From Thioalkalivibrio sp. ALJ21 (GTDB lineage Bacteria > Pseudomonadota > Gammaproteobacteria > Ectothiorhodospirales > Ectothiorhodospiraceae), in assembly GCF_000378605.1 (NCBI RefSeq), contig NZ_KB905156.1, positions 353,209 through 417,208 of the forward strand: a stretch of DNA of 64,000 nt. Reading direction: 5' to 3'. Position 1 is the first letter of the stretch. Each line of letters begins with the position of its first letter. A program made the position numbers and the translations under genes. A model generated the notes under the pieces. It was not told the DNA's origin, did no database searches, and worked only from the letters and a program-made list of their open reading frames with translations. Below are positions 13,266 to 62,863 of this stretch, piece by piece.

Positions 13266-14780
<1,515 letters not shown>

Positions 14781-15064
14781 AGGGTAACGCGGGTGAATGT
14801 ACGCATTCGCGCTCGAGTCGATTTTGCCTGCTGACAAGGCGCGGTGAGCGCGGTGTAGCCGAGCTACATAAGCGAGCCGCAACGCCGTCAGCAGGCAAAA
14901 TCGGCCGAGCCCCTCGCCCAATAAAATGGTGGGGTTGGAGCTGCCTGTTCCCCGATACAGCGTTGCGCCACTTGCGGGTAGAACCACTACCCGCTGCACG
15001 ACGCGCCTTGTCTCGGGAAACAGGCAGCACCAACGCGAATGCGTACATTCACCCGCGTTACCCT
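14781..15064. repeat. Palindromic dispersed element, copy 1 (about 284 bp, nested hairpins)
   Basis: The outer arms 14782-14811 and 15034-15063 are perfect inverted complements over about 30 bp. Inside are: a 16-bp stem 14820-14835/14887-14902 capped by a 6-bp hairpin 14854-14859/14863-14868; a CCCC/GGGG stem centred near 14920; and a 16-bp stem 14940-14955/15013-15028 (one mismatch) capped by hairpin 14974-14981/14987-14994 with loop AACCA. The copy at 59841 has the same length and architecture with different stem bases. The right arm overlaps the yqeY 3' end and supplies its stop codon. No reading frame inside is credible. It resembles a non-autonomous MITE-like or structured element; no target-site duplication is evident. 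Confidence 0.88.
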
Positions 15065-15501
15065 AGCGCGGACCGGACCTTCTGACTGACGACGCCCATG
15101 TCCGCGCGGCCGAAAACCCGGGGCTTGAGCACGCCCATCACCTTGCCCATATCACTGGGGCCGGCCGCGCCGGTCTCGGCGATCGCCTCGCCGATCATCT
15201 GGTCCAGTTCGGCGTCGCCCAGTTGCTCGGGCATGTAGGCCTCGATCACCGTGATCTCGGCGGCCTCGCGCTCGGCCAGGTCCTCGCGACCGCCCTTGCG
15301 GTACTGGTCGATGGAGTCGCGGCGCTGCTTGAGCATCCGGTTGAGGATGGCCAGCACCGCGTCGTCGTCGGCCTCGCGCCGCTCGTCGACCTCGAACTGC
15401 GAGACCTCGGCCTGGATCAGGCGCAACGCCGCAAGGCGTTCCTTCTCCCGGGCCCGCATGGCCTGCTTGACGTCATCCTGCAAACGGGCCTTGAGCGACA
15501 T
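15058..15501 (-). CDS. yqeY: GatB/YqeY domain protein
   Basis: 147 residues. It starts MSLKARLQDDVKQAMRAREKERL, with the VIEAYMPEQLGDAEL segment and the GxxDMGKVMGVLKP region of the YqeY family, which shares the tRNA-interacting C-terminal domain of GatB. Precise role unknown. In relatives it lies in rpsU-yqeY-dnaG-rpoD; here rpsU precedes it normally, but dnaG-rpoD is 9.8 kb away. The last Gly codon and the stop are contributed by the arm of the adjacent palindromic element. Confidence 0.92.
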   Translation of the reverse strand: MSLKARLQDDVKQAMRAREKERLAALRLIQAEVSQFEVDERREADDDAVLAILNRMLKQRRDSIDQYRKGGREDLAEREAAEITVIEAYMPEQLGDAELDQMIGEAIAETGAAGPSDMGKVMGVLKPRVFGRADMGVVSQKVRSALG

Positions 15502-50480: not shown

Positions 50481-50559
50481 GATGCGTTTCGCGTTGCTCA
50501 ACGCATCCTACGATAGGCAGGGCGGGCTGTAGGATGTGTTGAGCAACGCGAAACCCATC
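50481..50559. repeat. REP-like palindrome, GTAGGATGCGTTGAGC family, copy 1
   Basis: Arms 50481-50511 and 50529-50559 are inverted complements over 31 bases with few mismatches (right arm GTAGGATGTGTTGAGCAACG). It lies between the convergent dadA and phoQ-like genes, where it may act as a two-way terminator. A relative lies at 62766-62843. Confidence 0.85.
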
Positions 50560-57160: not shown

Positions 57161-57231
57161 TGTAGGAGGCCAGCCCTCTGGCCGATGGGGTTTTCTCGGC
57201 GTCCGATCGGCCAGAGGGCTGGCCTCCTACA
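57161..57231. repeat. REP-like palindrome, TGTAGGAGGCCAGCCC family, complete copy
   Basis: Arms 57161-57186 and 57206-57231 are perfect inverted complements over 26 bases around a 19-base loop. The right arm recurs exactly at 60438-60463. The element lies between the convergent hydrolase and fpr genes and likely serves as a terminator for both. Confidence 0.9.
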
Positions 57232-59828: not shown

Positions 59829-59840
59829 ATCCGCCTCCAA

Positions 59841-60123
59841 GGGAAACACTGATTAATGTACACGCTCGTGCTCGAGTCGCTTTTGCGTGCGAACAAGGCG
59901 CGGTGACTGCCGTGCAGTCATTCTGCACAAGGGAACCGCAACGCCGTTCCCACGCAAAGGAGGCCGAGCCCCTTCGGGGTTGGTACCCCAGGTTCCCCGA
60001 TCCTGCGTTGCTGCCCGCATCAGTCAAAAACGGGCCGGTAGAACCACTACCGGCTGCGCACCGCGCCTTGTCTCGGAAAACCTGGGGTGCCAACGCGAGT
60101 GTGTACATTAATCAGTGTTTCCC
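59841..60123. repeat. Palindromic dispersed element, copy 2 (283 bp, nested hairpins)
   Basis: The outer arms 59841-59870 and 60094-60123 are inverted complements (28 of 30). The internal stems correspond one to one with copy 1: 59882-59894/59946-59958 capped by GTGCAG/CTGCAC at 59912-59928; a CCCC-TTCG-GGGG hairpin near 59970-59981; stem 59982-60000/60073-60091; and an apical hairpin 60034-60041/60047-60054 with loop AACCA. Most stem bases differ from copy 1, but complementarity is kept. Conserved unpaired or core blocks are ACAAGGCGCGGTGA, CCGCAACGCCGT, GGCCGAGCCCC and GCGCCTTGTCTCGG. No gene lies inside. Confidence 0.88.
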
Positions 60124-60199
60124 TGGTAGGTGCTTTTGAATGACACCACCGACCGGCGGCAGGCTATAGCGCAATGGATGACAACGGAGAACGGACGGC

Positions 60200-60406: not shown

Positions 60407-60437
60407 CCCCAAGGGCATCACTGCGCACAAGTGCCCG

Positions 60438-60463
60438 ATCGGCCAGAGGGCTGGCCTCCTACA
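60438..60463. repeat. Half copy of the TGTAGGAGGCCAGCCC palindrome
   Basis: 26 bases identical to the right arm of the element at 57206-57231; the left arm is absent. It lies in the 159-bp spacer between the small hypothetical gene and the convergent nadA. Confidence 0.85.
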
Positions 60464-62765: not shown

Positions 62766-62843
62766 GGTGCAGTTCGCTGCGCTCAGTGCACCCTACGCTG
62801 CACACCCCAACCGTAGGATGCGTTGAGCAAAGCGAAACGCATC
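62766..62843. repeat. REP-like palindrome, GTAGGATGCGTTGAGC family, copy 2
   Basis: The right arm 62813-62843 (GTAGGATGCGTTGAGCAAAG and on) matches the arm at 50529-50559. The left arm 62766-62797 is a related but different version (GTGCAGTTCGCTGCGCTCAG). It lies between convergent genes. Confidence 0.8.
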
Positions 62844-62863
62844 GTGCTCAGGCAACCGAGCGC

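Follow-up and report, generated by a model that had tools for sequence, protein, structure and literature searches.

A palindromic element present twice in the window (the whole stretch of 64,000 nucleotides from Thioalkalivibrio sp. ALJ21 that was analysed) is well supported, by sequence comparison, as a non-autonomous IS5-type transposon and a candidate for mobilisation in trans. Equally well supported is a class-wide cloverleaf family in which such cores carry exchangeable ends. The explanation that we prefer, and consider probable, is that of a satellite transposon: IS5-family transposases would cut and paste the element in trans, its lineage would survive by adopting the ends of whichever helper is present, and its fold would matter during propagation.

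The two copies lie where the original prediction placed them, with offsets of 1-3 bp, and their parts are the following.

14783..15062, no strand: copy 1, whole element, 280 bp; ends set by the empty sites of congeners and by the fold
14779..14782, no strand: left target duplication of copy 1, CCAG; a single CCAG stands at the empty sites of G003 and G010
15063..15066, no strand: right target duplication of copy 1, CTAG, one base off the left one; from the 4-bp pattern of 153 distinct copies
14783..14811, plus strand: left terminal inverted repeat of copy 1, the 5' side of the outer stem; from arm complementarity
14811..14910, plus strand: hairpin H of copy 1, ~100 nt, with the motif CAAGGCGC ... 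GCAACGC; from the fold, model R2 and class-wide matches
14910..14934, plus strand: short central hairpin CCCC...GGGG of copy 1; from the fold, with a similar one in most of the 23 elements of other genera that were folded
14935..15033, minus strand: hairpin H' of copy 1, an inverted, diverged copy of H; from the self-match on the minus strand, model R1 and orientation counts
15034..15062, minus strand: right terminal inverted repeat of copy 1; from arm complementarity
59842..60122, no strand: copy 2, whole element, 281 bp; from the same end rule as copy 1, the fold and the same insertion elsewhere
59838..59841, no strand: left flank of copy 2, CAAG, read as a decayed target duplication
60123..60126, no strand: right flank of copy 2, CTGG, read as a decayed target duplication
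59842..59870, plus strand: left terminal inverted repeat of copy 2, end type A; 94% over 17 bp against the IS end of L061
59870..59969, plus strand: hairpin H of copy 2; from sequence and fold
59969..59979, plus strand: short central hairpin CCCC TTC GGGG of copy 2; from sequence and fold
59980..60093, minus strand: hairpin H' of copy 2 with a 15-nt extension; from comparison with copy 1
60094..60122, minus strand: right terminal inverted repeat of copy 2; from sequence and fold

Both copies fold into the terminal inverted repeats and three hairpin domains that had been predicted: an outer stem of ~30 bp encloses the long hairpin H, the tiny CCCC...GGGG hairpin and the long hairpin H'. The fold of copy 1 reaches -200.4 kcal/mol (z -17.9) and that of copy 2 -175 kcal/mol (z -13.8), values equalled by 0 of 200 shuffles in each case; a fold by chance is ruled out by the z-scores of both copies together with the covariation described below. 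The outer arms of copy 1 are complementary at 31 of 31 positions (14781-14811 with 15034-15064) and the copy matches its own minus strand (68% identity over 1-284), making the element a palindrome composed of palindromes. The compensatory stem pairs named in the original prediction are present in both copies, as is the common order of parts; the equal length is partly coincidence, since copy 2 combines a shorter central loop with 15 extra bases in the right hairpin and the 157 distinct copies of the genus range from 269 to 349 bp. A transposase is not apparent inside, as had been stated, but the claim that the element holds no reading frame is not strictly correct, because a mechanical ORF of 105 codons (14731-15048, minus strand) spans most of copy 1. 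Copy 1 is also found in G020 (99%; zero base differences, one gap column) and the insertion of copy 2 in a second strain (L048/L191). Beside copy 1, a minus-strand frame (15058-15501) has its TAA stop within the terminal repeat of the element, the insertion thus providing the stop codon.

Traces of transposition are seen at the ends. Where the window reads CCAG...CTAG around copy 1, the corresponding site of G003 and G010 consists of a single CCAG without the element; G004 also lacks the element there. Among the 153 of 157 distinct copies with recognised ends (the end finder slipped register in 14), 57 are flanked outside both ends by identical 4-mers: CTAG 38, TTAA 11, CTAA 3, TTAG 2, CTTG 2 and CCAG 1. 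The same count over all 168 copies gives 60 of 164 with identical flanks, and 97 A/A, 41 B/B and 0 A/B end combinations. Outer-stem cells are paired in 96.7% of cases in 30 diverse copies. IS5-family transposases follow a YTAR target rule with a 4-bp duplication, and the element shows both, as expected of an IS5 substrate. That it is a non-autonomous mobile element, one of the two possibilities first proposed, is hence borne out by the 4-bp target duplications, the empty sites and the ISs with matching ends.

These ISs, ~1.2 kb long and read at both ends, are three in number (L060, L061 and L071) and come from the congeners G010 and G012. Their transposases match NF033581 (IS5_4) above the cut-off, with a best E of 8.7e-95. 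One end, A, reads GGAAACACTGATCAATG in L061, GGAAACGCTGATCAATG in L060 and GGAAGCACTGATCAATG in L071; the other, B, reads GGAGACACTGATTTAAT in L071, AGAGACGCTGATTTAAT in L060 and GGAAACATTGATTTATG in L061. The outermost ~17 bp of the element resemble such IS5-family ends, and the identity to the congener IS5_4 ends is 17/18 and 16/18, so that the search for an IS with matching ends that had been suggested as a check was successful in congeners. Unlike the Thioalkalivibrio ISs, which have two different ends, the element has one end type on both sides: the 153 distinct copies comprise 90 A/A, 40 B/B, 0 A/B and 23 with an untyped end. The frame of L061 has a different N-terminus from that of L060, and L071 lacks ~ten residues near the catalytic region relative to L060; given these defects only L060 looks complete, and L061 and L071 are possibly inactive, judging from their frames. 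A search of the host genome with the PF01609 model gave 0 matches, and a helper may therefore be absent from it now. In L060 (~1316-2600), the IS directly abuts, across a common TTAA, on what seems to be one end of another element.

Size, ends, duplications, copy number and the lack of an apparent transposase would all suit an ordinary MITE, that is, an IS with an internal deletion and arms of only apparent structure. The element does have what defines a MITE: it is short, without apparent transposase, and has terminal inverted repeats, a target-site duplication and ends in common with autonomous ISs. Internal deletion of the IS is the usual origin of MITEs, if not a strictly defining one, and this origin is not seen in the element: the longest match between its interior and the IS is ≤18 bp. 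With no similarity beyond such matches, the internally deleted IS was rejected as a source of the interior. Since, furthermore, similar interiors carry ends resembling ISs of another IS5 model and cross-genus covariation is far above the controls, we regard the ordinary MITE as very unlikely. Another mobile alternative, a palindrome akin to REPINs or descended from IS200/605 and mobilised by a Y1/RAYT transposase, would account for the inverted hairpin pair, the intergenic location and the many copies. REPs and REPINs have short hairpins, no terminal inverted repeat and no duplication; the element combines ~30-bp terminal inverted repeats with 4-bp duplications of the YTAR type, its helper candidates with matching ends are of the DDE type, and we give the Y1/RAYT route almost no credence. 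The RAYT or IS200/605-type mobility considered in the original prediction was accordingly discarded, the ends and target site being of the IS5 DDE kind.

The element is abundant in the genus. At least 47 full-length copies were read in the host genome, where a DNA search with copy 1 gave at least 41 matches representing 40 places (the best 40 of 76 candidates were scored). Matches occurred in 16 of 29 congeners and in one genome of another genus among the relatives sampled, and an exact-pattern scan of contigs returned at least 104 stretches, all from Thioalkalivibrio among the matches listed. With nhmmer, 168 full non-overlapping copies were delimited on the fetched loci, 157 of them distinct as host-genome copies were partly fetched twice. 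None of the 141 contexts with enough flank among the 168 copies lies inside a gene, by a crude gene finder that also places copies at a median of 5 bp from gene 3' ends (86/134 within 30 bp) and 76 bp from gene 5' ends (45/130 within 30 bp). Gene orientations around the copies differ little from those of all neighbouring gene pairs. The CTAG target contains the stop codon TAG, which may explain the closeness to 3' ends. Neither phages nor plasmids matched copy 2, and phages did not match one relative; two relatives searched against plasmids hit 3 and 4 records, from Halomonas, Azotobacter and one Pseudomonas aeruginosa plasmid. Two plasmid records cover most of one relative query at 68-70% identity, and no annotated feature lies under the few plasmid matches in a gene table that is incomplete. 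In six copies (L041, L092, L099, L100, L131 and L166) the junction GCTGCTTCG replaces GCGCTCGAG and breaks the short helix below H, which suggests that this helix may be dispensable.

The family extends well beyond the genus. Covariance models R1 (H') and R2 (H), built from Thioalkalivibrio copies only, matched 34 and 57, respectively, of 369 sampled genomes of the host's class; the R2 matches fall in 47 of 271 genera, and two of the genomes are Thioalkalivibrio. In a sample of the phylum R2 matched 22 of 398 genomes, 11 of these outside the class, in two families. From the R1 and R2 matches 95 loci of other genera (48 genomes) were picked by hand. Outer arms were found in 79 of them and none in 16; the outer span is 255-300 bp in 65 of the 79, and YTAR flanks both termini of 46 of 77 loci, a pattern seen in 2 of 308 control windows further out. 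Hairpin orientation was read in a set of 88 loci, 85 of which have R2 matches: two hairpins are present in 56 of the 85, in +/- orientation in 55 of the 56 and with a 7-nt spacer in 46. Single-sequence folds of 23 elements from other genera mostly give the same cloverleaf of ~270 bp.

The ends differ between genera (GGCCTGTTAACA, AGCCTGTCTGTG, TACTCTTTCAAG, TGTCCTGTCCCA and others), and in two further lineages they again resemble those of local ISs: (i), G157 has an IS of ~0.8 kb with ends GGCGTGTTAACACTAAT that are 14-15/18 like those of the local elements, with CTAG on both sides in one of the two copies read; (ii), G311 has an 822-bp IS with ends GTTCTGTTGACGTTT, 14-15/18 like the local type L212 and 6-7/18 like L249. 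Both transposases match NF033580 (IS5_3), a second G157 ORF falling just below its cut-off (104.6 vs 110). Similar cores thus share ends with IS5-family ISs of two models, IS5_4 and IS5_3, and helper candidates are at hand in three lineages, Thioalkalivibrio, G157 and G311. For most end types a helper was not found in the genomes examined: none of 30 PF01609 loci (11 genomes) has the elements' ends on both sides, solo ends in three genomes led to no helper (visual inspection of ORF starts showed no transposase at 11 loci where the GGGCCTGTTAACA end is solo), and PF13340 is absent above cut-off in 13 of 18 genomes. Two loci or genomes stand apart: in the 4.5-Mb genome G383 the end motif occurs 111 times on one strand and 113 times on the other at ≤1 mismatch, reflecting many copies along with solo ends, and in G311 (L388:964-2912) the matching ends of an IS5-family IS lie 1.9 kb apart and enclose a further ORF of 358 codons, which we take to resemble an IS30 transposase.

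What is conserved in this family is the fold. Within Thioalkalivibrio, 30 diverse copies show double changes that preserve pairing at 41 of 88 pairs, and the covariation score, computed on a consensus structure, is 0.267, against 0.133 when shuffled and 0.039-0.060 with partners slid. Across genera, in 131 distinct hairpins of which none is from Thioalkalivibrio, 92.5% of cells are paired (58.3% when shuffled) and the score is 0.822, against 0.195 shuffled and 0.098-0.140 slid, in an alignment that is fitted to the model and hence favours structure. One of the five measures of this test was uninformative (double-change pairs, which 165 of 500 shuffles reach). The check by covariance models and further copies, as originally proposed, therefore yielded covariation above shuffled and slid controls both within the genus and across genera, and hairpin H defines a conserved-fold family with covariation beyond controls outside the seed genus. 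Conservation is also among the highest at two unpaired motifs, CAAGG and GCAAC.

The helices also carry a strand bias. When hairpins, from loci that came from covariance-model searches, were oriented by the CAAGG...CAACG motif and paired without a model, 84 of them gave 74 G-U against 10 A-C mismatches and 61 others; by genome, 29 lean to G-U, 0 to A-C and 4 are ties. In the model alignment the counts are 140 vs 22, with 34 of 39 genomes for, 3 against and 2 ties. In Thioalkalivibrio, with each half read on its own strand, U-G stands at 73 and 248 in the two halves and C-A plus A-C at 6 and 12. In the wobble test the U-G cells are concentrated, 45 of 61 lying in four positions. Some inner helices fall in the wrong place in the RNAalifold consensus of 157 copies, and the structure used for the genus wobble counts was therefore drawn by hand. 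In it, plus-strand counts for P2b of H (394:14) and for P4a (47:60) and P4d (5:20) of H' fit the polarity, the short helix P4c (122:1 on the plus strand in Thioalkalivibrio) is opposite to it, and the outer stem, where a polarity would not be expected, gives 123:47, mostly from two positions. As the halves are inverted, the favoured strand in each is the one that enters from its own end. A polarity from both ends cannot be explained by a single transcript; single-stranded DNA at either end can, or transcription from either side.

From these wobble pairs, which favour the entering strand in both halves, we infer, with less assurance than for the helpers or for a role of the fold in propagation, that the element could work as single-stranded DNA or RNA, in which each half would be entered from its own end. 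The fold would then perhaps pair the two ends, or the first hairpin would form once its strand becomes exposed. For IS5 transposases short ends are considered sufficient, which leaves the need for an inner fold unexplained. Hairpins are occasionally flipped: in L166 (3172-3471) the tip of the right hairpin is reversed, 166 of the 168 copies being normal and one unclassified, and in L219 (1361-1633, another genus) a whole hairpin lies in direct orientation, 1 of the 56 two-hairpin loci. The fold survives these flips, which points to DNA-level exchange within hairpins.

When the compensation occurs is informative about what keeps the fold. Insertion sites shared by two strains, as recognised from both flanks, give 16 pairs of copies, two of which are identical in base. 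In the 11 pairs with 1-20 differences (some share a copy), 70 helix pairs have changed one-sidedly and 2 on both sides, against 10610 one-sided and 2952 two-sided changes in 1458 non-orthologous pairs of the same divergence, pairs that are not independent, share rows and include old block differences. Resampling reached this contrast in 0 of 5000 draws, which owing to shared rows and copies is not a strict probability. The three remaining same-site pairs, with 31-50 differences, have 58 one-sided and 17 two-sided changes. With 2 of 72 changed pairs compensated at the same site, there is no sign of a host function that keeps the fold at each locus, and maintenance of this kind, locus by locus, was rejected on the one-sided drift of same-site copies; the same 70:2 indicates that paired changes mark differences between transposing lineages. 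The fold thus seems to be kept along transposing lineages and not site by site, a reading drawn from one comparison. The original claim that the fold is selected, as single-stranded DNA or RNA, stands as far as pairing is kept through massive compensatory change, also across genera, and is to be qualified in view of the same-site copies. A role of the fold during propagation would fit, since compensatory changes distinguish lineages from one another but not copies that have aged in the same place.

Complementary arms could also be kept without selection if the palindrome corrects itself, by template switching or arm-to-arm conversion during replication or transposition. This is suggested by the homogenised arms (A/A or B/B, with A/B 0 among 130 typed distinct copies), by double changes of transversion type with few intermediates and by the flipped hairpins of L166 and L219, which reveal strand exchange within hairpins. 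Yet same-site copies gain one-sided changes, so that correction in place looks rare, and self-correction alone would explain neither the excess of G-U over A-C on one strand nor the conservation of unpaired motifs, CAAGG/GCAAC for instance. We hold this explanation to be rather unlikely, and a correction coupled to transposition itself is possible.

Somewhat less likely still, the element might work in RNA, the first hairpin met in either direction of transcription acting as an attenuator, an antiterminator or a site for RNase III and so sparing the adjacent genes some of the damage. The wobble polarity fits a strand entering each half, and the absence of copies from genes, together with their proximity to gene 3' ends (median 5 bp) and to 5' ends (median 76 bp), is compatible with it. 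Transcribed, structured MITEs are indeed described for bacteria in the excerpts considered of PMC5896051, PMC10969869 and PMC2229807, and such precedents favour an RNA role. Against it, Rfam at gathering score recognised only a tRNA across the window and thus no family on the element (nine loci of relatives had only miRNA matches, E 0.08-0.6), and nothing in the timing comparison indicates maintenance at individual loci.

The satellite transposon that we favour has a bolder version, namely that of an ancient lineage in Proteobacteria whose heritable information would be the fold and not the sequence, whose cloverleaf core would have outlived its helpers through repeated uptake of IS5 ends, and whose spread would require a strand-polarised single-stranded form. 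We advance it tentatively, as a possibility of slightly less than even standing. Bacterial MITEs are usually viewed as decayed ISs; one structured core with different transposon ends would be a bacterial counterpart of helper-switching parasites. It would also offer a way to ask why a DNA transposon should need a fold, and the timing comparison, which tries to separate selection at the locus from selection during spread, is applicable to other palindromic repeats.

In the excerpts consulted, bacterial MITEs (Correia/NEMIS, ERIC, RUP, QMITE1/2) are short, usually without transposase, mostly intergenic, and have terminal inverted repeats, a target duplication and a very stable predicted fold (PMC10969869, PMC5896051, PMC2229807); the element resembles them in size, inverted repeats, duplication, intergenic location and predicted fold. 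It differs from them in three respects: (i), the IS with which it has its ends in common is not the source of its interior; (ii), its fold has been preserved, through compensatory change, in many families; (iii), its ends differ between genera. It is like the IS5 family (NCBIfam IS5_4, IS5_3) in its ends and 4-bp CTAG/TTAA-type flanks and unlike it in having no apparent transposase. With REPINs and BIMEs it shares a dyad of inverted hairpins in many intergenic copies, unlike them it has terminal inverted repeats, duplications and DDE helper candidates, and its hairpins of ~100 nt contrast with REPs of 20-40 bp in the part considered of PMC3733652.

Two further parallels are analogies only. SINEs are non-autonomous lineages that persist by acquiring the recognition end of different helpers; the element is similarly fitted with different helper ends, no relation being claimed, and differs in being a DNA transposon without reverse transcription. 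AAV-type inverted terminal repeats are nested palindromes in one outer stem, with occasional inversion of an inner hairpin; the nested palindromes and occasional inner-hairpin flips of the element are a likeness of form that is not extended to a Rep protein or a replication role.

Caulobacter repeats with two arms appear in the excerpt of PMC2229807, and a core common to elements with different ends does not figure in the excerpts of the structured-MITE accounts PMC10969869, PMC5896051, PMC4853749 and PMC2229807. Searches of the open literature, also with six terminal-repeat strings, retrieved no description of the element; most subscription journals, ISfinder and preprints lie outside this scope and a description there is possible. 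Two further repeats occur in the window: a second inverted-repeat family, GATGCGTTTCGCGTTGCTCAACGCATCCTAC, forms a hairpin at 50481-50559 with a distant, inverted partner at 62807-62844, and a REP-like hairpin, TGTAGGAGGCCAGCCCTCTGGCC, lies at 57161-57231 with a further single arm at 60434-60463.
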